In this document: piece by piece, positions 7,543-46,552 of the stretch
Layout of the letters: each line of letters opens with the position of its first letter
Position numbering within the stretch: the stretch's first letter is position 1
Source of the DNA: an uncultured Agathobacter sp.
GTDB taxonomy: Bacteria; Bacillota; Clostridia; Lachnospirales; Lachnospiraceae
Length of the DNA stretch: 64,000 nucleotides
Direction: 5' to 3'
NCBI GenBank assembly: GCA_945910395.1
Contig: CAMDYX010000006.1
Coordinates: 1-64,000 of the forward strand
Program-made: the position numbers and the translations under genes
Notes under the pieces: model-generated
What the model was told of the DNA's origin: nothing
Databases searched by the model: none
Seen by the model: the letters and a program-made list of their open reading frames with translations, nothing else

Positions 7543-7895
7543 AAAAAAATCCCTGACAGAATATGTTCTACTCTGTCAGGGACGATAACTCGTGGTGCCA
7601 CCCTTATTCATCGCGCAGCCCATAAGGGCATTAGAAAAAAAATAAAGCGGACTCTCCTAATCGGAAAATCCGCCACCAATTACGCGATCTCTGCGATACA
7701 GAAGATTACTCTTCGATATCTTACCCTTATAACGTAGGGAAACGGCGCTGCTACTCGGAAACTCCTTTCACTTTGCATCTAACGAATCCATTCCATCCAA
7801 ATGCTCCTATCTGCTCACACCAGCCGCAGACTCTCTGAAAAGATCAGTTCAGTGTACTACTTTCGCTCATTGATTTTAAGTATCTGCTTTAATTG
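7543..7895 (-). promoter_or_regulatory. Tryptophan T-box riboswitch with attenuator terminator
   Basis: The minus strand carries the T-box core AGGGTGGCACCACG (7591-7604). A strong terminator hairpin follows at 7550-7582 (TCCCTGACAGA paired with TCTGTCAGGGA), with a run of seven T. The stem I region contains GGATGGAATGGATTC; UGG in GAAUGGA (7788-7790) is the likely specifier, which matches tRNA-Trp. Uncharged tRNA-Trp would stabilise the antiterminator and switch on trpE. Confidence 0.92.
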
Positions 7896-32666: not shown

Positions 32667-33452
32667 TTATGCCTCCTCATTTTTCTTCTTCATCAGAACA
32701 ACTGCCCAAACCAGAAGAACTAAGCCGCCAACAAAGGCAACCATGGACATTACCATAGGAATCATAACGTCTCCTGTCTTTGGAGCAAGAGGTACAAGCT
32801 CCTCAAGAATTGTTACGATGGTATCCGGATTCTTAACCGTTACCACCTCCCCCGGAGTGTAACGATCCTCGTAACGAGTAGTGGTGGTTGGCGCATTTTC
32901 TACTGCAAAACGAAGCTGTAACTCAGCCAAAGTATTCATGTAGCTATTATCCTGCGTATTTCCATCCAAGGTAATATTCAGAAGAATTTTTCCCTTTCCT
33001 CCGGCCGGAATACCATCCAGATAAACATAAGAATCTGAATCTGTAATCTGTACCTGCTTCAAACCGACACCATTCGTTGTATTTTCACCACCAACTGTAT
33101 CGTTATTGTACAGAACCGTCTCACTTCCATCTGCATTCTGATATACCAGAGAAAATGTATATGCACCATTTGATGCACTTGAAGACTCCTCCAAAGATTT
33201 TACGATACTTGTTGTAAGATAATAATAGGTTGAATTGGAAGAATTATTATACAAATCAACAGAAATGGAAGCAGTATCTCCCGGCTGAACATTTTTAATG
33301 ATTTCAGTCAAATCTGTTTTTTCATTGGAAAGTGTTTTTCCATCATAGGTTACGCTGGTTGAAGCCGGAATGGTATCTGCCATAACAGTTGTTGTCATTC
33401 CAAAAGAAAATACACATACGGCTGCAAGACATAATAATTTTTTAATTTTCAT
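32667..33452 (-). CDS. Secreted protein with LAPKTG sorting signal
   Basis: 261 residues from ATG 33450-33452, preceded by GGAGG; the longer frame has no ribosome site. A signal peptide (MKIKKLLCLAAVCVFSFG) leads a beta-rich domain, then EELVPLAPKTGD, a hydrophobic helix and a KKKNEEA tail, a sortase signal of LPXTG-like form. It is probably attached to the wall or pilus base by one of the nearby sortases. The start overlaps the previous gene by 11 bp. Confidence 0.8.
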   Translation of the reverse strand: MKIKKLLCLAAVCVFSFGMTTTVMADTIPASTSVTYDGKTLSNEKTDLTEIIKNVQPGDTASISVDLYNNSSNSTYYYLTTSIVKSLEESSSASNGAYTFSLVYQNADGSETVLYNNDTVGGENTTNGVGLKQVQITDSDSYVYLDGIPAGGKGKILLNITLDGNTQDNSYMNTLAELQLRFAVENAPTTTTRYEDRYTPGEVVTVKNPDTIVTILEELVPLAPKTGDVMIPMVMSMVAFVGGLVLLVWAVVLMKKKNEEA

Positions 33453-34197
33453 TTGTCTGTCCCTCCGTTTCATGAGCAACACCCTGAATGGTTCCATTCT
33501 CATCAATATCTAAATAAACGCCCCAGGAAGCACGAGCTGCATCGTATGCATTGTGTGTCTGGATTTCATCTACCTGAACATCAATGGAAAATGATTTCCC
33601 ATCATAGTTGTAGGTAGTCTGGATAGTAGTCCCTGCCGTAGTACTCTCTACTGTGCTTTCGGTAACAATCTCCGTAATGACATCGTTGACTGTAAGTGAA
33701 TTTGTAATAGCAATAGGGTCCGCTTTTGCTGCTACAGGACTCTTATAATAATACACCGTACGCTCCGGAGTACTTGCAGCTTCATCAATAATCCAAGCAT
33801 CCGAATCTGCAATGGCAAGGTCAATCAATGCAGGATTTAAGGACTGATCCTTTTTCTCCCCCTCATACCAGCTCTTTGTGATAATCACGCGGGCATAAGC
33901 ATCGTAATCCTCTCCATTTTGAAAAGAAATCTTTTCTTCATACGTTTTCCCGATACAAAAACTGTTATCAATCCAACCTAAAAGAGAATTTACTTCTTCC
34001 TGTTTCCCATTCCCTATCAGCTCCTCATTTTCATAAAGGGATACCGCTACATTCGATGTTGCAAAGTCAGCAACAATCGCTTCATTGGTTGTGGCATTGA
34101 TTGCTGCTCTTGTACTTCCTACTGCAGAAAGACCAAGTAATGCAACTGCGCTTGCTGCAAGAATTGTTGTTTTATTAAGGAGGAAATTCTTTTTCAT
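33442..34197 (-). CDS. SipW-dependent-type secreted protein
   Basis: 251 residues. The N-terminus (MKKNFLLNKTTILAASAVALLGLSA then VGSTRAAINATTNEA) matches the layout of signals cut by SipW-type peptidases, as in TasA/CalY/camelysin proteins. The rest is beta-rich with a Thr/Ser-rich patch (TESTVESTTAG). No C-terminal anchor is visible. The ATG overlaps the preceding stop (TAATG). It is a likely fibre or ancillary subunit, processed by the signal peptidase-sortase fusion encoded at 29.6 kb; that pairing is inferred. Confidence 0.7.
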   Translation of the reverse strand: MKKNFLLNKTTILAASAVALLGLSAVGSTRAAINATTNEAIVADFATSNVAVSLYENEELIGNGKQEEVNSLLGWIDNSFCIGKTYEEKISFQNGEDYDAYARVIITKSWYEGEKKDQSLNPALIDLAIADSDAWIIDEAASTPERTVYYYKSPVAAKADPIAITNSLTVNDVITEIVTESTVESTTAGTTIQTTYNYDGKSFSIDVQVDEIQTHNAYDAARASWGVYLDIDENGTIQGVAHETEGQTNEN

Positions 34198-34772
34198 TAA
34201 TTGTTACCTCCTTCCGAATTTGCTTCAGAACTTGCTTCTGAACTTGTTTCTGAATTAGATTCTGTATTTTCTTCTGTGTAAATTTTCTGATCCCAACCTG
34301 CAGTTGGCTTTTCATTTTCGTCATAAAGAACCCTTGCAGATTCCGGAATAACAATTACATTGAAGTCAGCATAGGTTAACTTTGCATCTGCAAGAGCATT
34401 TGTTGTATCAATGGAAAGTGTAAGTTCCGTAGCACTTTCCCCAGGCTGAAGAATGCTATTATAGTAATAATAACCATCAGCATCAAGGCTCCATCCTTCA
34501 CCGACATATGTTGCCGAAATGCTTTCCGGCATGATGACTGCAACTCTTACATAGCAAGGTGTCTGCTCGGTATTTGCCACAGAAATCACTTTTGTCTGTC
34601 CCGATCCACTCTCTGTAATCTTTGCATGTGTATCATCAATTGCAACAGCAACCTTTCCATTGGCAGAAACGCTTGCCGTAAAATAAGCCATTGCAGGCTT
34701 TACGGAAAGTCCCACGATAAGGACAAGCGCACATGCTGCAAGTGAAATTACTTTTTTATTCATCTTCATCAT
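34197..34772 (-). CDS. SipW-dependent-type secreted protein (TasA-like)
   Basis: 191 residues with a signal followed by AYFTASVSANGKVAVA, the classic N-terminus of SipW-processed matrix proteins. A compact beta-sandwich-like region (TPCYVRVAVIMPE, LQPGESATELTLSI) follows and the C-terminus is Ser/Glu/Asn rich with no membrane anchor. Start supported by AAGGAGG. In Bacillus such proteins form extracellular fibres. Here it lies between a pilin-like gene and a second SipW-type gene. Confidence 0.78.
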   Translation of the reverse strand: MMKMNKKVISLAACALVLIVGLSVKPAMAYFTASVSANGKVAVAIDDTHAKITESGSGQTKVISVANTEQTPCYVRVAVIMPESISATYVGEGWSLDADGYYYYNSILQPGESATELTLSIDTTNALADAKLTYADFNVIVIPESARVLYDENEKPTAGWDQKIYTEENTESNSETSSEASSEANSEGGNN

Positions 34773-34788: not shown

Positions 34789-35985
34789 TTATTGTAAATT
34801 TCCTTCGTTAGTCTGGTCTGGATTTTCTTCGTTAGAAGGTTCTTCATCGCCACCATTCGCCTGGTCTGTAACCTTTGCAGAACTACTCCATTCCCAACCG
34901 GTCTCACCCTTTGTAAAGGTGTTTACAACAGCCGTTCCGTTTCCAACCAGCTTATCGTTATAAGTGTTTTCAAATCTTGCTACCGGATAATCATCTGCCT
35001 TACTAATTGCAGTAAGTGCATCCAGCTTTACAACATCACTAGTATCCTTAGCAATCTCATATGTTGCCCCTGTATAGACTTCCTTGACCGTTACAACAGA
35101 ACCGGCAGGAATCTTATCAACCACTATAGACTGGGTTCCGGCCTGCGAAAAATCAATAGCTCTTACATCATCGAATACCTTTACCATATTCGGATTTTCA
35201 GGATCTACGCTATAATTCTTTTCCGCCACAATAGAATAAACAAAGGAAGTCTGATTCATGGATGTATTAAATTTATCTACAGTCTTTTCAATTTTAATTC
35301 CGGTAAGACGCTCTGTTCTCTCATACTTTGAAGCCCAATTAAGTGCCACATCGTAGTTCCATTCATCCTCGCCTTCAAAAACATATTCTCCATCCTTCAA
35401 TACCCAAGAACCCGTTACATAAGGCAGCTGAATCAGATAATTGTTAAAGGTATAAATCTCTGTAGCAGTCTCGACATCAGGTACTACCACAAGATATAAA
35501 CCAACAGCTACACTATCTATACTTCCTTTTCCACCAACAACCTCCAGGGTATAATCTGGTGCCGGTTTTTGAACAGGATCTGAACCATGTACTGTTATAG
35601 GATTTACAATACTACTTGCCTTCTCAACAATGTTAATCCATTCCTCGGCAGTTACGGAAGAAAGCTCTGTAATTTCTTTACCATCAACATCCGTAACCCC
35701 TTTAAATTTATCCGTCAAGGTATATACAGCTGATTCAGAAACATTTGCCACCTTATAAAGATTTACTGAAAACTCTGCAGATGATAACTGCGCCGTATTG
35801 TATGCTCGGTCTGGATCTGCATTGTCTCCATCATTCAAATCTGCAACATTTACAGATACCGTACATTTTGTTGACGTCTCAATGGCTTTTGCCGCATACA
35901 CATTTGAAATTGCAAATCCGGATACCGCAATTACAGCAGTCAGTAAAACAGCGATTCCTTTTTTCAAATTCATCATCTTTTTCAA
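34789..35985 (-). CDS. Secreted pilin-like protein without a C-terminal anchor
   Basis: About 398 residues. The start is TTG (35983-35985), immediately after the sortase stop and 8 bp after GGAGG; an ATG three codons later is possible. A signal peptide (to about VYAAKA) leads two Ig-like pilin domains (FKGVTDVDGKEI, TGIKIEKTVDKFN, DKIPAGSVVTVKEVY). It ends in an acidic tail, without LPXTG or a membrane helix, so it could be a secreted or truncated pilin subunit. It is adjacent to class C sortases. Confidence 0.72.
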   Translation of the reverse strand: MKKMMNLKKGIAVLLTAVIAVSGFAISNVYAAKAIETSTKCTVSVNVADLNDGDNADPDRAYNTAQLSSAEFSVNLYKVANVSESAVYTLTDKFKGVTDVDGKEITELSSVTAEEWINIVEKASSIVNPITVHGSDPVQKPAPDYTLEVVGGKGSIDSVAVGLYLVVVPDVETATEIYTFNNYLIQLPYVTGSWVLKDGEYVFEGEDEWNYDVALNWASKYERTERLTGIKIEKTVDKFNTSMNQTSFVYSIVAEKNYSVDPENPNMVKVFDDVRAIDFSQAGTQSIVVDKIPAGSVVTVKEVYTGATYEIAKDTSDVVKLDALTAISKADDYPVARFENTYNDKLVGNGTAVVNTFTKGETGWEWSSSAKVTDQANGGDEEPSNEENPDQTNEGNLQ

Positions 35986-36870
35986 CTAGATATCCTCCTT
36001 CATACTCTTTGACTTTTTTCCTCCCAGAATCAGTCGAAGTAAAAGTATCAAAATAAGTGTTATTATCAAACCGACATAAACGTAAATCATGTAGTAGCTT
36101 GTTACGTTTTCGACTAAGGCCGAAGCCGGAGTGCTATCATCTGCAATCTCAGTTGGCTCAAATGGAATTCTCTCTCCCCGAACCAGCAAGCGATGTGTAT
36201 TTACACCATAAGGTGTACAGGTAAAAAGTGTAACGTAATCTTTTCCCTCTTCGATGGCCAAAGCATTTGATAAGGTATCCATATCATCCTTATCCACCAT
36301 CGGTAGAACCTGATCTACTTCGTATGCCAACGTATCATCCAATACGTGAATGTAAAAAACATCTCCCTCTTGAAGCTGATCCACATCTGTGAAAAGTTCT
36401 GCCGAAGGAAGTCCTCTGTGTGCTGCAAGAACACTGTGGGTCCCTTCTCCTCCGATTGGAAGGGAGGTTCCATTTAAGTGTCCCACACCGGTTTGTAAAA
36501 CGGCATCTGTAGTGCCATGGTAAATAGAAAGCTTAACGCCGATCTTCGGAATGGAAATATATCCCATGATTCCATCATTTCCGATGTTAAGTACATTTCG
36601 ATAATCGGAATTTGCAGCATCCCCACTATCTTCGCCAAACACATCCGCATAAATATTATTTTGTGTAATCTGTGAAGTAAAACCTTTTGCAGCGCTCCAT
36701 TCCGCAGAAAAATCTTCCACGGTCATTTCTTCCACAACATCGTCATAGGAAGAAATCAGCTGACTCTGGCGGTAGGTATTCCATTGATTGGAAACCACCG
36801 GATAAGTTAACACGCCAAACCCTGCAAGAAAAAGCAGGGCAAACAAAAGATTTGCAATCTTTCTAATCAT
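35986..36870 (-). CDS. Class C (pilin-polymerising) sortase
   Basis: 294 residues from ATG 36868-36870. One N-terminal membrane helix, then the sortase domain with HSVLAAHRG (His), TLFTCTPYGVNTHRLLVRG (Cys and Arg), then a C-terminal membrane helix, typical of pilus sortases. It lies directly after the other sortase C, which it resembles closely, with a start beyond that stop. Two class C sortases can have different pilin substrates or act together. Confidence 0.93.
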   Translation of the reverse strand: MIRKIANLLFALLFLAGFGVLTYPVVSNQWNTYRQSQLISSYDDVVEEMTVEDFSAEWSAAKGFTSQITQNNIYADVFGEDSGDAANSDYRNVLNIGNDGIMGYISIPKIGVKLSIYHGTTDAVLQTGVGHLNGTSLPIGGEGTHSVLAAHRGLPSAELFTDVDQLQEGDVFYIHVLDDTLAYEVDQVLPMVDKDDMDTLSNALAIEEGKDYVTLFTCTPYGVNTHRLLVRGERIPFEPTEIADDSTPASALVENVTSYYMIYVYVGLIITLILILLLRLILGGKKSKSMKEDI

Positions 36871-36874
36871 AATT

Positions 36875-37741
36875 CTATGCCTTTGTACTCTTTTTTGACA
36901 AACGTCGGTCCAGAATAAACAGCACAAGGATAAATGCAACAGTTATTCCCAGTCCGACCAGTACCCATAACAGATAATTTGTATGGTAGCTGTATGCAGC
37001 AAGAGGAATGTCTTCCTCCTCCACCATACCCTCTACATAATCCACTCTGTGACCTCTTACCAAAAGCCGCTGCGTATTTACGCCGTATGGTGTACAGGTA
37101 AGAAGTGTAACAAGATCTTTTCCATCTTCAACCACAAGGGCCGTTGTATCTACCGGCTCCACCGTAAGAATCTGATCCACCTCATAGGCAAGAGTCTCAT
37201 CCAATACATTGATGTAAAAATGATCGCCTTCCTTCATAAGATCAAGATCTGTAAAAAGAGATGCACTGGGCAAACCTCTGTGAGCAGATAAAACAGAATG
37301 TGTACTTTCTCCTCCAATCGGAAGGGAACTTCCTTCGAGATGTCCTGCTCCGATCTGAAGCACTTCATCACTGGTTCCATGAAAAATCGGAAGCTTAATT
37401 CCAATTTTGGGAATCTGAACATATCCCATAATGCCATCACCGTTTAGGTTCAGGCAGGACATATATTCTTCATCCTCTTCCTCTGCTGCTTCCGCAGTTG
37501 CAAATGAATCCGGCAATATGCATGGCAGAAGGTTTGTGTTATATGTATTTGCCGTCAGTACCTCAGACTCATAATCAATCTGTCCGTTTTCATCTGCCAC
37601 AACAATTGCCTCCTCATAGGAGGAAATCAATTGTGTCTGTCTGTAATTATTCCAGGTGTTGGAAACAAGTGGATACAGCAGTAAGGACAATCCGGCGAGC
37701 ATCAGTAATCCAATTGCTATGAACTTTATATTCTTTTTCAT
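36875..37741 (-). CDS. Class C (pilin-polymerising) sortase
   Basis: 288 residues: N-terminal helix, HSVLSAHRG, TLLTCTPYGVNTQRLLVRG with catalytic Cys and Arg, and a C-terminal membrane helix preceded by EEEDIPLAAYS. Clear AAGGAGAGG site. It is the first gene after the major pilin and a small intergenic hairpin. Its product would link pilin subunits through the LPSTG signal. Confidence 0.94.
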   Translation of the reverse strand: MKKNIKFIAIGLLMLAGLSLLLYPLVSNTWNNYRQTQLISSYEEAIVVADENGQIDYESEVLTANTYNTNLLPCILPDSFATAEAAEEEDEEYMSCLNLNGDGIMGYVQIPKIGIKLPIFHGTSDEVLQIGAGHLEGSSLPIGGESTHSVLSAHRGLPSASLFTDLDLMKEGDHFYINVLDETLAYEVDQILTVEPVDTTALVVEDGKDLVTLLTCTPYGVNTQRLLVRGHRVDYVEGMVEEEDIPLAAYSYHTNYLLWVLVGLGITVAFILVLFILDRRLSKKSTKA

Positions 37742-39281: not shown

Positions 39282-39387
39282 TTTTTCTCTCCTTTTGGGT
39301 CTTCCCCTATTTTTTATTTATTTTATTTATTGGGACCAGGCTCAAAAGGCGAATGCCATGGGCGTTCCTTTTCCCTTAATAAACACA

Positions 39388-39420
39388 TTATTACATATCT
39401 TGGTAACACCGCGGTCACAC
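39388..39420 (-). promoter_or_regulatory. SARP-type promoter of the major pilin
   Basis: Heptamers GTGTGAC (39414-39420) and GTGTTAC (39403-39409) with spacer CGCG, period 11 bp. Nine bp later is -10 TAATAA (39388-39393). No -35 TTGACA is present, as expected for activator-dependent promoters. Confidence 0.75.
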
Positions 39421-39448
39421 CTGACACATTTATTACCATTTTGCTTCT

Positions 39449-42400
39449 TTATACTCTGTAAGCTTTTCTTCTGCTCATGAAGATGTATAATGCACCAGCC
39501 ATCATTAAGAACATACCACCGAACATATAAGCAAATATTCCTGTTCCACCAGTTGCCGGAAGTGAATAAAGCGCCTCATCTTCATAGTAGATGGTGTAAG
39601 TCTTTGTTGCTTCATCATAAGATGCATTGCTTTGATCAAATCCGGAAATATTATTATCCAGCCCGATTACAAACGTCCAGTCCTCATTTACTGTATATCC
39701 GGTGGGAGCAAGTGTCTCTTTTAATGTATAGGTTCCTGCTGCCACTTCTTCGACAACCGTTGTATATTCATCATCTGAGTACCAGGTTATCTTTCCGTCG
39801 CTTTCGGATTTACCATAATAGGTATGATCGTCAGATGAAAGCGTAAACTCTGCTCCTTCAAGATAAATCATATTATCAGAAGTACTGCTTGCACTAATCT
39901 TATAGATGTTCCACTCGTAAATTCTTGCTAAATCGTTGTAAACAGTTACTGAATAAGCATTCTCAGCTGTGTTTACAATCGCACTCTCGCCTTCTCCGGC
40001 AGTAATAGACGTTGTCTCAGCTTCAGTCGGCAATTTCCAATGTGCATCTACCTCATCAAATGTGATAACACCCTTACTTACCGTAAATGTAAGTGCCTGC
40101 GATTCCTTATCTAACAAAGCATATTTTTCCGGTGCTGCTGTTTCTACAAGACGATAGCTTCCAGATGTAAGATAGCCAAAATCCAATCTTCCGTTTTCTG
40201 ATGTCGTCTTGGCAACGCCTGTTGTATCAGTATCCTTGTATAATGTGAAGGTAACACCTGAAAGCGGTTCTCTCTTTTCATTATGCTTTACAAGAATCAG
40301 CTTTGCTGCATCCACCTGAATAACCGGATGATCAAAGTTTTCGGTCTTTTCTTCTCCATCAAAGGAATAGGTTACCTTTGCTTCTGTGTTTGAATTGAAG
40401 CCTTGTTTTCCGGAAGAAGTCTCATTTCCTTCTGCATCTGTATTAGCAGCTCCAACGTTTGTGTATCCATCCGTTGCATATTCATTATATGCAGTCTCAG
40501 AAGCCTTTACTGTAAAGGTAACCGCATAAGTATAATCCTCGTCTAACTCATAGTCTTCCGGGAAGTTGAGTGTAACTACTTTATTACTGTAGCTGGCTGT
40601 AAGAGTTACATCACTCTCGCCATCCTTAAATGTATAGGAAGCATCTGATGCCCCAGGCTTTCCACTTGTGCAGGTTCCTACTTCATTACCTTCTGCATTC
40701 TTTACAGAAATTACCACATCACTATTTTCAACAATATCCACATACTCGCTTAAGGTATCTGTCAAAGTAACCTTTGATGCATATTTGTATGTTTTGGTAA
40801 TATGTGACTCGCTTTCTGTAATAATCTCACCTGCGATATTTGAGAACAGACTTCCCAATTCGCTTGGCTTTTTATTAACTGCGCTCTTTGTTGTTGCGTT
40901 TACTGCATTAGCAACATTTGTAAGCACGTCGATTCCGTTCAATGACTTACCATTTAATCTATATACATCATCTTGAAGTCCGATTCCAACTGCATAGAAT
41001 GTGTCACAAGATAATGCTTGAGCTCCCATGATAGAGCCTTCATAATCAGCGCGATATGTCTCATTGGAACCACCACAATATATATTTCCAGCATTGCTTA
41101 ACTTATCATAATGATTACATAATGAGTTCTGCCTCCAATAATCATCACCGTAATAATAACAATTATTATGCTTAGAGCACAAATGATAAGTTGGTGCTCC
41201 ATCCGTAATGAAAATTACAATCTGTGTTGCATCTTCACGAGCATTCGTAGAAACTGCGGTTTGTGCCTTTACAAGTCCATCTTGGTAATTTGTTCCACCA
41301 GTCGGATTATTAATACTCTTTACGTTTGATAATAAGGTGTCACTATTTCCCCAATCTGAGGTAACAATGTTTGCACCGGAAGAAAAAGTTACCAATTTCC
41401 ACCGGGCATCAACGGTTTGTTCCTTTGCCTTTATTGCGCCCACCATGTTTGATACAGCGTTTTTTGAATTTGAAAGATTGTCTCCATCCATAGACCCTGA
41501 AACATCCATCACAAGAACAATGTCAACCTTTGCTTTTGTAATAGTTGTAATATCTTCATATTCCGTTTTGGTTAATTCCTGCTTCGGACCTTTAAAGCTT
41601 AATGTAAGATCATAATCATTGTCTACGTCATCATGACGAATCACTTTTGAAAGAACACTATTTGTTTCATTTACCTCTTCTTTAATTAGAAGGTTTCTAA
41701 AATCAACACTTGAAGTATGCGCATCACTAACAGTAACGGTTGCCATTCTTGGTTTTTCAGACGCCGCGGTAATTGTAGTAAGTTCTCCACCATTTACCGA
41801 TACTCTTGTGCTGAAGTCGGATAACTTATAAGCATTGTTTGAATTCTTTACCTCTGTTTCTGTTACAGTATAATCTCCAGACTCTAAATTCGCGAAAACA
41901 GCACTCTGGCCATTCTTTAAAGTAAATACACCATTTTCATCTGTGCTATATACTGTTGATGATGTTCCTATCGTATAGGAAGCATTTTTTACTCCAACAC
42001 CATTTGTTGAATCCTTTAATACAAATTCATAATCAGATGTATCACCCTCTGCAACATCTATTGCATTCTTAGAAACAGAAAGGCTTCCCTTTGGAACCGT
42101 CTGCAGATTAAATTTAATCTTGCAATTGGATTCCTGATTTCCTCTTTCCAGATAGAAGAATTTCATGGTGTGAACCGAATAATCCTCTAACTTAATTCCA
42201 AGTGCAGAAAGCGTTGTATCGATACTATTTCCAATCTTAACATCGCCTGTTGCAAAATTGATGGAACCGCTTGCTGCACCATGAATTCCACCCAAGTCTA
42301 AAGCCAATATTCCGTCAATAAATACCCATACATCGTCATCCCCGGAAAATTCGAAAATCATATCCTCTCCGTTGATTTTTCCCGCTGCCGGCTGAAGGAA

Positions 42401-44425
42401 TTCGGTTTCAATTGTCATACCAAAATAATGGTTTATTTTGTTTGAACCAAGAACGTCGCCATCGGTATTATTGCATCCAGAACTTAAATCATTGGCTTTT
42501 GCAGTAAATGGGAAAAATCCACTACCTTTATCTGCATATACAATAAAATCATTTCCCTCTTCATCTGCAATTGTGGCAAAGTTTTGGTCGCTATCATATG
42601 AATAGTAACCTTCACTATCTAAGGTGAATAAATAATTAGCGTTAGGATATACCTTTTTAGCATTTGCAATATCTGATTCATCAAAAAGATAACTCAAAGA
42701 CTCTGTATAATTGCTTCCCCATACAGATGTATTTCCGGACAACTTCGGGAATCCATCACTGCCAAGAGTCGTTGCAACAATATTCTTTCTAACTCCGGAA
42801 CCGTCGGTATAGCAATTGGCAAGAGGTGTATTACCCGATGCATTATTCATAAACTTCAGCTTATGTCCGCTATTAATTCCAGAGCCACTATTGATTCCTA
42901 CTTTTCCAACTTCCTCGCTTCCGTTACCAGCTGCATTCGCTTTATAATCAAAAAGAGTAATCGTGACACCCTTGCTTGTTGTGTCAACGGTTTCAATTAC
43001 ATTTGAATTATTCTTCCAAACCGCAGTAAATATAACATTTCCTTTTACATCGTACTTTTCGCCCGCTTTATATGTAACTGTTCCGTCACTCCATCCGTCA
43101 AACGTGTATCCGGTCCTTGTCACAACATATGAGCCTGGAAGGTATAGACTTTCTCCTTCTAATTTGGTTTGAACTGTTTCAAAATTCGCATTTTCAACAA
43201 AGCTTCCTTTTCCTGCATCAAATGTAATGGTACATTTATTTTTCCATACCGCTTTTAAAGTTTCATTTTTTGTTACATTATAATAGGTAGTGGCAGGAGC
43301 CCAGATAGTCTTTTCGCTATCTTCCCATCCAGATAATTCATAGCCTTCTTTTTCCGGAACATCAGTTTTTCCCGGAAGTATTGTAGAACCCCACATGGAA
43401 ACATATGCCGGATCAGCTAATTCCGTTGTTCCATCCTCGTCAACAAAGGAAACCTTGCTTCCCCATACAGCACTAAATGCAGCGTCTCCATTTACAGTGT
43501 ATTGGTCACCCGGCTTATATATGGTCTGAGTTGCGTCTTCCTTCCATTCAACAACTACATTTGAATCCGTTGCATATTCTTCTGCTGAAGGAAGTGTTAT
43601 GGTATTTCCTTCATATACAGTTTCCGTTCCAAGCTCTGTCTGCCAATCTTCTTTGTACGTAATAGTATGTGTAGCTTTTGGCTCAAACACCATATATACG
43701 TTTACTGTGCCTGCATTATCACCTTTTGTTTTCCATCTGGTCCAATTTTCTGTAGAACTATCAACATAATGCCAAACATAATCATCTCTACTAGCATCCC
43801 ATGCTCTGTTAAAGCTAATATTTTTTACACTTGCCCCAGCGCTCTCTTCGCCCTGGTATCTATCTACACATGTTTTTCGATATTTATATCCTTCGAGATT
43901 GAGTCTTTCTGCAAGTATTTCAAAATAATCTACATTTTCACTAGCGCTTCCATCGTTAGCAACACCCACATTTAAATTCTGAGTATTGCTCATTTCATAT
44001 ACGGATACATTCTTCCCACTTATAGCTATTTCATTTCCTGAGGTGTCAACGGCATATACGTTTGCATAGTAGTAATTAGTTTTATCGCCCCAATACCAAT
44101 ATTCATACTTCCATGTAAATGTACATACCAAATTACTTGCCTCATTTGCTGTAAAAGTTGTAGGCACATCACTTGTTGACTCATCATTTGCCGGTGTACT
44201 GGAAAGGCTATATGAACCACTCGTCTTATCATTTTTATCTGTTGTCTCAGTTTCAACAACCTCAGTTGTCTCCTCCACCATTGTCTCTGTTGTTTCAACC
44301 GTTTCAGTAGACTCTGTTACCATTTCTCCAACTTCAGTAGCCATAGTTGACAGATTACCTGTCAGAAGTAATGCTACGCAAAGTACTGATACAATTGTTC
44401 TTTTTACGAAAGGAAACTTTCTCAT
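39449..44425 (-). CDS. Large pilus tip/adhesin with VWA domain
   Basis: 1658 residues. After a signal peptide and an acidic Thr-rich stretch there are InlB-type repeats (about 275-475, GYELSGWEDS and GYTFDGWSDG). A fibro-slime-like domain follows (DGILALDLGGIHGAAS). A von Willebrand A domain with MIDAS DVSGSM starts near residue 990. SpaA-type domains follow, then LPATGG at about 1622 with helix and RRK tail. VWA plus SpaA plus LPXTG is the usual design of pilus tip adhesins. It is the first gene of the pilus run, with two SARP-type promoters upstream. Confidence 0.9.
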   Translation of the reverse strand: MRKFPFVKRTIVSVLCVALLLTGNLSTMATEVGEMVTESTETVETTETMVEETTEVVETETTDKNDKTSGSYSLSSTPANDESTSDVPTTFTANEASNLVCTFTWKYEYWYWGDKTNYYYANVYAVDTSGNEIAISGKNVSVYEMSNTQNLNVGVANDGSASENVDYFEILAERLNLEGYKYRKTCVDRYQGEESAGASVKNISFNRAWDASRDDYVWHYVDSSTENWTRWKTKGDNAGTVNVYMVFEPKATHTITYKEDWQTELGTETVYEGNTITLPSAEEYATDSNVVVEWKEDATQTIYKPGDQYTVNGDAAFSAVWGSKVSFVDEDGTTELADPAYVSMWGSTILPGKTDVPEKEGYELSGWEDSEKTIWAPATTYYNVTKNETLKAVWKNKCTITFDAGKGSFVENANFETVQTKLEGESLYLPGSYVVTRTGYTFDGWSDGTVTYKAGEKYDVKGNVIFTAVWKNNSNVIETVDTTSKGVTITLFDYKANAAGNGSEEVGKVGINSGSGINSGHKLKFMNNASGNTPLANCYTDGSGVRKNIVATTLGSDGFPKLSGNTSVWGSNYTESLSYLFDESDIANAKKVYPNANYLFTLDSEGYYSYDSDQNFATIADEEGNDFIVYADKGSGFFPFTAKANDLSSGCNNTDGDVLGSNKINHYFGMTIETEFLQPAAGKINGEDMIFEFSGDDDVWVFIDGILALDLGGIHGAASGSINFATGDVKIGNSIDTTLSALGIKLEDYSVHTMKFFYLERGNQESNCKIKFNLQTVPKGSLSVSKNAIDVAEGDTSDYEFVLKDSTNGVGVKNASYTIGTSSTVYSTDENGVFTLKNGQSAVFANLESGDYTVTETEVKNSNNAYKLSDFSTRVSVNGGELTTITAASEKPRMATVTVSDAHTSSVDFRNLLIKEEVNETNSVLSKVIRHDDVDNDYDLTLSFKGPKQELTKTEYEDITTITKAKVDIVLVMDVSGSMDGDNLSNSKNAVSNMVGAIKAKEQTVDARWKLVTFSSGANIVTSDWGNSDTLLSNVKSINNPTGGTNYQDGLVKAQTAVSTNAREDATQIVIFITDGAPTYHLCSKHNNCYYYGDDYWRQNSLCNHYDKLSNAGNIYCGGSNETYRADYEGSIMGAQALSCDTFYAVGIGLQDDVYRLNGKSLNGIDVLTNVANAVNATTKSAVNKKPSELGSLFSNIAGEIITESESHITKTYKYASKVTLTDTLSEYVDIVENSDVVISVKNAEGNEVGTCTSGKPGASDASYTFKDGESDVTLTASYSNKVVTLNFPEDYELDEDYTYAVTFTVKASETAYNEYATDGYTNVGAANTDAEGNETSSGKQGFNSNTEAKVTYSFDGEEKTENFDHPVIQVDAAKLILVKHNEKREPLSGVTFTLYKDTDTTGVAKTTSENGRLDFGYLTSGSYRLVETAAPEKYALLDKESQALTFTVSKGVITFDEVDAHWKLPTEAETTSITAGEGESAIVNTAENAYSVTVYNDLARIYEWNIYKISASSTSDNMIYLEGAEFTLSSDDHTYYGKSESDGKITWYSDDEYTTVVEEVAAGTYTLKETLAPTGYTVNEDWTFVIGLDNNISGFDQSNASYDEATKTYTIYYEDEALYSLPATGGTGIFAYMFGGMFLMMAGALYIFMSRRKAYRV

Positions 44426-44500
44426 TTATGCCTTTCCTCCTATTTATATCTGTAACAATTCATTATATGCATTAAAATTTATCTATATGCATTTTAGATT

Positions 44501-44524
44501 AAAAAAGTCACATGGCGGTCACAC
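44501..44524 (-). promoter_or_regulatory. SARP-type promoter, proximal, of the tip adhesin
   Basis: Heptamers GTGTGAC (44518-44524) and ATGTGAC (44507-44513), spacer CGCC, period 11. Eight bp after the second repeat lies TCTAAAAT, a plausible -10. Confidence 0.65.
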
Positions 44525-44574
44525 CACGAAATTTTCTACTTTTTTGTATCTTTTTCCATTTGAACCACAATTAC

Positions 44575-44606
44575 TATATACATAAATAGTCACACCGCGG
44601 TCACAC
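44575..44606 (-). promoter_or_regulatory. SARP-type promoter, distal, of the tip adhesin
   Basis: Perfect direct repeats GTGTGAC (44600-44606 and 44589-44595), spacer CGCG, period 11. Exactly eight bp later is -10 TATATA (44575-44580). The rest of 44426-44746 holds only this, the proximal site and the terminator at 44662-44709. Confidence 0.78.
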
Positions 44607-44661
44607 GGAACAATTTTCTTGTGTGTTTGGTACTTTTTTCCCTTTTTTTCTGTTAATAAAA

Positions 44662-44709
44662 AACACCAAATATAGTTTTACCGTGTATCATTTAACTATA
44701 TTTGGTGTT
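44662..44709 (-). terminator. Terminator after the Rpn-like fragment
   Basis: A perfect 16-bp inverted repeat (AACACCAAATATAGTT with its complement) followed on the minus strand by TTTTTTATT. Confidence 0.8.
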
Positions 44710-44746
44710 CTATGGTTTTATTACTACTTATTTATCCGTCTATTCT

Positions 44747-45061
44747 TTACATCGCTTTTTCAAATTCTTCTACACTGCTTACTTTCGCAGAGAGCTTCAG
44801 CCATCTTGTAAGTACATCCATATCCTTCTGGCTCATGATTTTTTCCTTTAGGTCTATGGAAACTGTTCCTACTTCTTCCAGTAATTCTATTGTGGACTCT
44901 GCTTTCCCTTCGGACCTTCCCTTAAGGCGCCCCTCTTTTATTCCTTCTTTTATCCCCTCTTTTTTTCCTTCACCTAAAAGTTCCTGTTTCCAGTCTTCCA
45001 TTCCTTTGCACATCATATTTGTTTTTCCCTTCGTCTGATTTATTTGAAAATTCAAATTCAA
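44747..45061 (-). pseudogene. C-terminal remnant of an Rpn/PD-(D/E)XK nuclease family protein
   Basis: About 104 codons. It has CKGMEDWKQELLGEG then KKEGIKEGIKEGRLKGRSEG and ELLEEVGTVSIDLKEKI, DVLTRWLKLSAKVSSVEEFE. This is the C-terminal part common in Lachnospiraceae transposase-like Rpn nucleases; the catalytic N-terminal nuclease domain is missing upstream. The remnant may still be translated but cannot be a full recombination nuclease. 45062-45268 shows no other gene. Confidence 0.65.
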
Positions 45062-45268
45062 GCATGAATTGATTAATTGTGCGGTCTCTACATCGATATG
45101 CTAGCATCTACGATTTCGGAATTCAAGAAGGTACAGAAAAACCGTCAGATGTACCAATATTTTGTATTGTTTTAAGAATAATTCTTTTAAAATCACTCCA
45201 ATCTCAAGACAAAACACGCCTCTTTTTTGTAACCCCTCTTTTTTCACAAGATTTTCCGACAAAGAAAA

Positions 45269-45290
45269 ATCCAGCCTCGCAAGGCTGGAT
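45269..45290 (-). terminator. Terminator of the SARP regulator gene
   Basis: ATCCAGCCT paired with AGGCTGGAT, then TTTTTC on the minus strand, 60 bp beyond the stop. Confidence 0.8.
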
Positions 45291-45336
45291 TCGAATATGC
45301 AAATTCATTCAGAAACACATTTCCGAAATGAGATTT
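45286..45336 (-). repeat. Truncated element relic (right end)
   Basis: GATTCGAATATGCAAATTC, ATTCAGAAACACA and TTTCCGAAATGAGAT, the right arm end only. It starts inside the terminator stem of the SARP gene. Confidence 0.75.
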
Positions 45337-45352
45337 GAATTTTTACTTATTG

Positions 45353-46552
45353 CTATTGAACAAATTGTCCATTCATGGATACCTGTTCGATATTTACACG
45401 AACATTGACATTCTTGTACTTGGAATCAAGATCAAATAATTTTGAAATTAATCGGTTTGCAACAAGAAGCGCCAATTCCTCAGTAGTGCTCGGAAGTAGG
45501 ATAATAAACTGTGTATCGCTGTACTTTGCGGCCACATCTCCTACTCGAAGAGAATCTTTAATGGTTTTCTCCATTCCGTTCATCGCCTGTTTCGTTCGAA
45601 ACTGTGCAAGCTCTGGGGTATCTTCCTTTTTTCCTGTAATCGTAAGAAGCAGTAAGTATTCGCTTTCCTTTGCTCTGGTACTCTTTCTTGCTTCCAGATG
45701 ATAAATCTCTTTGAAAATCGGATATCCGCAAAAGAACACCCCTTCCGGCTCTTCCTCAACAATATCCTCACGAACTTCATTCATGCTGTATGCACTCTGC
45801 CCCTTACTCATTGCAAGAAGCTCTTCGTATACCTTATTTAATATTGTTGTTTTCCGGATTCCTAATTCTTTTTCCATGATTTCTCTCGCTTTTTCGTATG
45901 ATTCCAACGCAAGAGATATCTTGCCACAGCGCATACGTGCTTCAATCTGATAGCAGAAAAGCTGTTCATCTCCATTCTCATATTTTAGTGCATTATTACA
46001 TAACTTATCCAGCTTTTCATATTGCTCTGTTTTTACATACAGTTCTGCCAAGCCCTTGGCACAGGATAAGAAAAGCGAATGATAATAGGTATTTAATGTA
46101 AGAATCCAATGCATGTCCAAAATCTGTGGAAGGAAATCGCCCTGATAGATTGCAATTGCCTGTTCATATTTGATAATTGCATCCTCATAGACATTTTCGA
46201 CTTTTGCTTCGTTGATCAGCTTTTCAAACTTCTCAATATCAAGGATCACCTTTACATCCGGATTCCAACGATAAGAACCACGATTTGTAACAATGAAATC
46301 TTCCTCTCCGAAAAAGCTTGTAAGAGTCTTACGCAAACGGTACATCAGATTTTTTAATGCCCCTGCCGGATTATCGATTTCTTCATCCTGCCAGATTGCA
46401 GTTGAAATATCATCTGTAGTAAGTGTCTTCTCCCTGTATAAAAGCATATACATTAAAAGCTTTGACAACATAGGAGAACGAAGCTGTTCGTCATCTGCAA
46501 CCGTCAATCCGTCGGTCATCTGAAATTTTCCAAGCGTATTTACTGTTAACAT
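45353..46552 (-). CDS. SARP/BTAD-type activator with degenerate GGDEF-like C-terminus
   Basis: 399 residues. Residues about 1-100 form an OmpR-type winged helix (LLMYMLLYREKTLTTDDIS, LMYRLRKTL), 100-245 the bacterial transcriptional activation (BTAD) helical repeats. The C-terminal third (SEYLLLLTITGKK ... RVGDVAAKYSDTQFIILLP) has the pattern of a GGDEF domain with SDTQF in place of GGDEF, so a cyclase activity is unlikely. It is encoded on the same strand directly upstream of the pilus region. The three GTGTGAC-type promoters there fit its family's operator layout. AAAGGAG precedes the start. Confidence 0.85.
   Translation of the reverse strand: MLTVNTLGKFQMTDGLTVADDEQLRSPMLSKLLMYMLLYREKTLTTDDISTAIWQDEEIDNPAGALKNLMYRLRKTLTSFFGEEDFIVTNRGSYRWNPDVKVILDIEKFEKLINEAKVENVYEDAIIKYEQAIAIYQGDFLPQILDMHWILTLNTYYHSLFLSCAKGLAELYVKTEQYEKLDKLCNNALKYENGDEQLFCYQIEARMRCGKISLALESYEKAREIMEKELGIRKTTILNKVYEELLAMSKGQSAYSMNEVREDIVEEEPEGVFFCGYPIFKEIYHLEARKSTRAKESEYLLLLTITGKKEDTPELAQFRTKQAMNGMEKTIKDSLRVGDVAAKYSDTQFIILLPSTTEELALLVANRLISKLFDLDSKYKNVNVRVNIEQVSMNGQFVQ

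Follow-up and report, generated by a model that had tools for sequence, protein, structure and literature searches.

What switches on the sortase-pilus cluster of a clostridial commensal, and to which signal does the switch respond? The question is raised by a locus in the first 64,000 nucleotides of contig CAMDYX010000006.1 (the window) from an uncultured Agathobacter sp. (GCA_945910395.1; G000 in our genome numbering), a 3.14 Mb draft genome of Lachnospiraceae type in 127 contigs, 89% complete. On the minus strand of the window a gene encoding a SARP-type regulator is followed by a terminator-like stem, two putative operators, an adhesin gene, a third putative operator, and the genes of the major pilin, two sortases and four further secreted proteins (Table 1). 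With its LPXTG major pilin and class C sortase the locus qualifies as a sortase-assembled pilus cluster. In this study, we computed the geometry of the sites, the fold of the SARP, the content of its regulon, the co-occurrence of sites and regulator, and the conservation of a GGDEF module at the C-terminus of the regulator, whose active site is lost and whose inhibitory site (I-site) positions are invariant. Action of the SARP at these sites is likely. The fuller reading, in which it is also gated by cyclic di-GMP (c-di-GMP), is one that we moderately favour, judging from sequence. Whether, throughout gut Clostridia, regulators of this kind use a fused GGDEF module that keeps only the I-site to couple c-di-GMP directly to adhesins, sortase pili and TasA-type fibres stands at an even balance.

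The original prediction, made by reading the window, had described three GTGTGAC pairs on the minus strand, and all three are found where it placed them (operators 1 to 3; mismatches in Table 1 are counted against GTGTGAC-N4-GTGTGAC). It had found no further copies, and throughout the 3.14 Mb genome there is indeed no other copy with 0-1 mismatches; six others have 2 mismatches, as compared to 6 matches of the reversed-pattern control at up to 2. If up to 3 mismatches are allowed, three matches in the window are unremarkable (mean of 1.9 in shuffled sequence; 32 of 100 shuffles reach 3). A pattern that includes the -10 hexamer (20 specified bases, up to 3 mismatches) retrieves from the genome these three sites, with 1, 2 and 2 mismatches, and no control match. 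Chance origin of the sites was rejected for the stricter pattern, that is, at 0-1 mismatches or with the -10 included.

The promoter layout had to be corrected. A -10 box had been proposed 8-9 bp past each pair; the gap is exactly 10 bp past the second heptamer at all three sites, and the proposed boxes, two of them given as TATATA and TAATAA, were shifted (corrected hexamers in Table 1). Spacing was determined in the window and in the surroundings of the regulator gene fetched from relatives (12 loci, making 13 sequences in all), using pairs with at most 1 mismatch and making no use of the -10. A TATAAT-like hexamer (up to 2 mismatches) stands at gap 10 in 14 of 14 pairs, the next commonest gap being 7 (6/14). 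The proposal that the heptamers replace the -35 was borne out, as a TTGACA-like hexamer (up to 2 mismatches) at a spacer of 15-19 bp occurs in none of the 14. An ordinary sigma-70 promoter was rejected on the same count, and promoter-like consensus matches in the region are as frequent as in shuffles. Position 8, left unspecified by every pattern, is C or T in all 68 distinct sites of the fetched loci (up to 2 mismatches) and in 35/35 exact sites of the all-genome scan described below; the exception is an A in a G337 site (up to 2 mismatches), which lies outside the fetched loci. The constant pyrimidine and the fixed gap together give the operator code GTGTGACY-N3-GTGTGAC-N10-TATAAT. With the usual transcription start (-10 at -12 to -7) the repeats begin at -40 and -29, as they do for AfsR at the afs box, and the direct-repeat period of 11 (or 22) bp typical of SARPs is present as 11 bp. 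According to the published SARP rule the 3' repeat lies 8 bp from the -10; here the distance is 10 bp in the GTGTGAC register, so that the rule does not hold literally. A c-di-GMP riboswitch was rejected as the controlling element, since the sole Rfam match at the gathering threshold within the window is a T-box leader at 7575-7879 on the minus strand.

Concerning the regulator, its assignment to the SARP type was confirmed by Pfam matches to Trans_reg_C (E 3e-6) and BTAD (E 5e-17), both over the cut-off. Matches to the structures of AfsR and EmbR cover residues 1-252, and no other BTAD match (E<=0.001) is found in the genome. The original prediction had proposed scanning related genomes for an association of sites and SARP. 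In a genus set of 36 genomes, own genome included, nine carry the regulator (split in G020 and G033) and ten carry sites at up to 2 mismatches; sites are present in 9/9 genomes with the regulator vs 1/27 without it (overlap of nine genomes; Fisher 1e-7, uncorrected for kinship). In an order set of 294 genomes, 77 match the regulator profile at E<=1e-20, some by the GGDEF part only, and 11 have sites at up to 2 mismatches. Eight of the nine order genomes scoring at least 370 bits, a line set after inspection of the list, have sites vs 3/285 of the others. The site in G366 has no same-strand gene directly behind it, which lowers this association slightly. Of the three others, the G313 site seems genuine, lying at a TasA-type operon 3.6 kb from a SARP; G103 has no same-strand gene behind its site, and G337 is the genome with A at position 8. 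As reversed-pattern controls gave 6 matches in 60 genomes (up to 3 mismatches) and 3 in 294 genomes (up to 2), lone matches with 2-3 mismatches elsewhere may be noise.

The code was then followed through 84,980 species genomes with the pattern GTGTGAC-N3..5-GTGTGAC-N9..11-TATART, which yielded 54 stretches. By inner gap and gap to the -10 these comprise 35 of class (4,10), 13 of (4,11), 5 of (5,10) and 1 of (4,9); inner gap 3 is absent. The 35 exact (4,10) sites belong to 25 genomes by record name, nearly all Lachnospiraceae or other Clostridia and one Erysipelotrichaceae; 7 of the 25 are also in the genus set. A full-length regulator is found in 18 of these genomes and a partial or split one in four (G060, G066, G076, G083), while G071 has a BTAD match only and G078 and G079 have none. 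In 17/25 genomes a regulator gene and a site are no more than about 3 kb apart (two of the genes are split and one is a distant paralogue). Outside the genus, too, most sites adjoin SARP genes and precede genes of surface proteins. Adjacency is not universal: the G016 regulator is 22 kb away from its nearest site (L075), which precedes a sortase-pilus operon. The recognition helix of most regulators near sites reads GALKNLMYRLR or is a close variant. In six regulators from other subfamilies (L192-L197) the helix residues differ, and no site at up to 3 mismatches lies nearby; a search near other SARP subfamilies for any 11-bp direct repeat followed by a -10 gave scattered matches near background, which did not reveal a separate code for each subfamily. 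The draft of Roseburia inulinivorans DSM 16841 shows the regulator as two separate open reading frames (ORFs) (L036:4337-5559 after reverse complement), owing to sequencing error or to real inactivation.

What the sites precede could be read in the same loci. The first downstream ORF was identifiable for 32 of the 35 exact (4,10) sites; its N-terminus is strongly hydrophobic in 28 and, by eye, signal-peptide-like in the other 4, as compared to a hydrophobic N-terminus at 364 of 1884 random points (19%) of the same loci. Reading by eye identified the first gene as encoding a small secreted protein of TasA/camelysin type (MKKK...GGTLA kind) at 16/35 sites, and the remaining sites mostly precede large surface proteins. 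Pfam support is partial: among nine relatives' proteins, Peptidase_M73 was found in L183 (over the cut-off) and L202 (below), and Peptidase_S26 in L186 (below); six have no Pfam match, three of these being a companion protein described further below. Sortase-pilus operons are among the predicted targets, as the original prediction had it in naming LPXTG pilins, but the set is wider, with TasA/camelysin-type proteins as the commonest first gene.

Two further classes resemble the code. The (4,11) sister motif (L089, L090, L097, L098, L102, L104, L113, L125, L127, L128, L129, L131, L136; mostly Clostridia-type records) was set apart as a different motif: position 8 is a purine in 12/13, SARPs were not found in some of the genomes, and the first gene at L089, L097, L102, L128 and L129 encodes a short peptide of GG-leader type that by eye resembles a bacteriocin or RiPP. 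Only 3 of the 9 downstream ORFs found in this class have a hydrophobic N-terminus. Another regulator may read this motif. Near-identical (5,10) pairs in four cyanobacterial records (L096, L120, L122, L123; three of them Microcoleus) probably represent one conserved locus unrelated to the present system.

The original prediction had missed the C-terminal part of the regulator, a degenerate module with GGDEF fold (residues 268-390). In 36 homologues its active site is lost: GG(D/E)EF mostly reads S-x-x-Q-F/Y, and the metal Asp is replaced by Thr (32) or Ser (4). The c-di-GMP I-site positions R293, R336, D339 and R367 are each kept in 36/36, so that the module has an RxxD motif with arginines of the R390 and R313 types. 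This RxxD-plus-Arg set occurs in 0/17 canonical GGDEF domains of the own genome, a control in which the I-site was read at fixed offsets and 11 of 28 loci were dropped for want of a canonical motif near the centre. Besides the regulator the genome has 28 GGDEF matches, and two of its ORFs carry a sister module directly behind a canonical GGDEF domain. Together with 20 loci picked from C-terminal-only profile matches they form a sample of 22 cyclase-borne modules (an extra match in L211, the catalytic domain itself, was excluded). Each of the 22 follows a canonical GGDEF motif at a distance of 107-118 residues. R336, D339, Q348 and R367 are kept in 22/22 and R293 in 21/22, which are not unbiased rates because a profile holding these residues retrieved the modules. 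The catalytic domain upstream has RxxD in 5/22 and RxxD plus Arg in 1/22. On cyclases this catalytically dead domain with its I-site apparently has the role of a feedback part, and on the SARP that of a sensor.

We predict from these data that the regulator binds the sites, activates from them and has c-di-GMP as its ligand. Two protomers would bind head-to-tail on GTGTGACY-N3-GTGTGAC, and the operator pair, in the place of the -35, would recruit RNA polymerase to promoters in which a -10 stands without a -35, in the manner of AfsR at the afs box. The predicted regulon of the own genome is the sortase-pilus cluster: the tip adhesin gene would have two promoters, and a third would serve the major pilin gene together with the sortases and minor proteins. 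The regulon of relatives would comprise TasA/camelysin-type fibres and further large surface proteins. Gating of the activator by c-di-GMP is probable, in view of the complete I-site on its dead GGDEF domain: a c-di-GMP dimer bridging two such domains, as in PleD and tDGC, would favour a dimer of the regulator that fits the tandem repeats.

Several observations weigh against this reading, some on the side of the signal and others on the side of the sites. As to the signal, the SARP could activate the surface genes via the sites with a module that is no c-di-GMP sensor and is instead a relic of dimerisation or protein contact, a receptor for another nucleotide, or a redox device based on Cys275. 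Position 275 is Cys in 36/36 SARP modules vs 0/22 cyclase-borne modules, which hints at a second or different signal, possibly a redox or metal input. Moreover, Arg and Asp of the module may be retained for structure, the I-site argument being one from sequence conservation, and the available part of PMC7288161 describes degenerate GGDEF domains elsewhere that bind GTP or do something else. This alternative has to account for the loss of the metal and GG(D/E)EF residues while all four I-site positions are kept, and for the maintenance of the same pattern behind cyclases whose catalytic domain mostly has no I-site. We regard it as unlikely and retain c-di-GMP as the favoured ligand.

As to the sites, a different OmpR/PhoB-type regulator encoded elsewhere could bind the pairs, the SARP gene being linked to them for another reason. 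Tandem 7-mers at an 11-bp period replacing the -35 are a general layout of OmpR/PhoB-type winged-helix proteins (pho box), which counts for this explanation. In two genomes with exact (4,10) sites, G014 (identical to G079; 86% complete) and G078, no SARP was found, nor was one found in the (4,11)-motif genomes G088, G089, G090 and G092; GTGTGAC pairs alone therefore do not prove a SARP. Of thirteen relatives' sites away from the regulator whose contexts were inspected individually, seven precede genes of secreted or membrane proteins (L072, L075-L078, L082, L084), and the other six hardly or not at all (L073, L074, L079, L080, L081, L083), that of L081 falling inside an ORF. The sites at L040/L092 and L198 adjoin paralogues with a different helix, in genomes that also hold a regulator of the usual type. 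Conversely, regulators with the usual helix at L032, L034 and L199 (G016, G030, G307) lack a site in the region fetched around them, though their genomes carry sites elsewhere, and the G352 regulator (391 bits, same helix) has none in its genome at up to 2 mismatches. Against another regulator stand the co-occurrence in the genus (9/9 vs 1/27), the linkage within about 3 kb in 17/25 genomes, and the KN..YR helix of most regulators near sites, which the six site-free members of other subfamilies do not share. We consider this explanation improbable. That the regulator binds the sites and represses, the pair blocking polymerase at a weak promoter, is very improbable: the sites do lie over the -35 region, a position from which repression is conceivable as well, and the available part of PMC10599522 cites earlier work in which pilA rose on deletion of GSU1771 in Geobacter (in the biofilm RNA-seq of that paper pilA fell), but the lack of a -35 in 14/14 sites should leave the promoter weak unaided, and the fixed 10-bp gap in 14/14 is expected of a sigma-touching activator and unneeded for a repressor.

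Table 1. Features of the regulator and pilus locus, in window coordinates
Feature	Position	Strand	Remarks
SARP-type regulator, 399 amino acids	45353..46552	-	OmpR-type winged helix, BTAD and C-terminal degenerate GGDEF module
Degenerate GGDEF module	45383..45751	-	residues 268-390 of regulator; 36-sequence alignment, PDB profile alignment, I-site literature
Terminator-like stem-loop	45267..45292	-	behind regulator gene; 11-pair stem and T run
Operator 1	44589..44606	-	GTGTGACCGCGGTGTGAC; precedes adhesin gene; 0 mismatches
-10 of promoter 1	44573..44578	-	TATAGT; 10 bp past operator 1
Operator 2	44507..44524	-	GTGTGACCGCCATGTGAC; precedes adhesin gene; 1 mismatch
-10 of promoter 2	44491..44496	-	TAAAAT; 10 bp past operator 2
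Tip adhesin, 1658 amino acids	39449..44425	-	VWA, SpaA and fibro-slime domains; LPATG anchor
Operator 3	39403..39420	-	GTGTGACCGCGGTGTTAC; in 167-bp gap between adhesin and pilin genes; 1 mismatch
-10 of promoter 3	39387..39392	-	AATAAT; 10 bp past operator 3
Major pilin, 484 amino acids	37827..39281	-	SpaH/EbpB-like; LPSTG anchor; NF033902 under curated cut-off
Class C sortase	36875..37741	-	NF033745, 277 bits vs cut-off 160
Second sortase	35986..36939	-	Pfam Sortase
Secreted pilin-like protein	34789..35985	-	DUF5979 under cut-off; codirectional, probably same operon
Small secreted protein	34197..34772	-	weak match to BsaA/SipW-dependent matrix protein, TIGR04090 E 1e-4, under cut-off
Small secreted protein	33442..34197	-	weak match to BsaA/SipW-dependent matrix protein, TIGR04090 E 0.0016, under cut-off
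Surface protein	32667..33506	-	weak LPXTG-type anchor match, NF033073 under cut-off

The stem-loop behind the regulator gene is weak on its own, as the terminator scan returns equal numbers in shuffled sequence. Between regulator and adhesin lies a short ORF (44747-45061, minus strand) with a KEGIKEGIKEG stretch and no Pfam match over the cut-off; we take it to resemble the tail of an Rpn-type transposase/nuclease gene. Beside or near several SARP genes of relatives, a companion protein of about 145 amino acids (LRICVDE...GRI...RQHSSWQG) is encoded (L186:6394-6825, L202:9463-9897, L201:12034-12477, L198:2613-3101, L184:9603-10076, L185:3404-3850, L092:3717-4178); the three tested had no Pfam match. 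The companion ORF of L184 and that of L185 run at their ends into an operator. The companion was not seen beside the regulator of the window.

The published systems compared here were available in part, and statements on them refer to those parts. AfsR and other SARP activators at the afs box of Streptomyces (PMC10936776) share the heptamers in place of the -35 and, if the -10 is taken to lie at -12 to -7, the repeat starts at -40 and -29. In contrast, the repeat here, GTGTGACY, differs from that of the afs box, the position of the base-contacting Thr88 of AfsR is occupied by Asn68 in the alignment with the present regulator, the C-terminus of AfsR consists of NOD plus TPR where ours is a degenerate GGDEF module, and the host is a clostridium with surface-fibre targets. 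In EmbR of Mycobacterium tuberculosis the added domain is FHA (PMC10936776), whereas here it is GGDEF-like. GSU1771 of Geobacter sulfurreducens is described as a SARP-family protein that affects pilA, exopolysaccharide and biofilm; it differs by an N-terminal receiver domain and by mixed up and down effects on pilA (PMC10599522). PopA and other degenerate GGDEF receptors of c-di-GMP likewise have a dead active site and keep the RxxD I-site, but PopA, a response regulator, is connected with the localisation of proteins and their degradation by ClpXP (PMC12564702). The same source describes VpsT, VpsR, FleQ/FlrA, BldD, BrlR, MrkH, LtmA and CLP as c-di-GMP-controlled DNA-binding proteins, several of which act on biofilm genes; none of them is described there as a SARP or as a carrier of a GGDEF module, and no SARP is among the c-di-GMP effectors that it describes. 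In the BsaA/SipW system of Clostridium perfringens (PMC7395162) clostridial BsaA matrix proteins appear, with SipW and sortase among the terms, whereas the proteins of the window match the BsaA model only weakly, below the cut-off.

The original prediction regarded SARP control of adhesive pili as a new role of the family. Nothing among the literature matches listed points to SARP control of sortase pili, though GSU1771 is a partial precedent for pili and biofilm (PMC10599522). Nor does any of these matches point to a SARP with a GGDEF module, in a search outside which most subscription journals fall, and the available parts of PMC2447327, PMC12487129 and PMC1262709 hold no protein joining BTAD and GGDEF. 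The components, SARP, sortase pili and degenerate GGDEF receptor, are of known kinds; their combination was not found in the literature searched, as far as its available parts go.

SARPs are regarded as activators of antibiotic clusters in actinomycetes, and the same promoter geometry apparently serves adhesive fibres of gut Firmicutes, with an operator clear enough for much of the regulon to be predicted from sequence. If the module binds c-di-GMP, it would add a receptor type to those known, a second-messenger receptor of new architecture with a readable operator code and a predicted regulon, and its counterpart behind cyclases would provide feedback. It would then also explain how bacteria with many GGDEF proteins could tie surface attachment to the second messenger.

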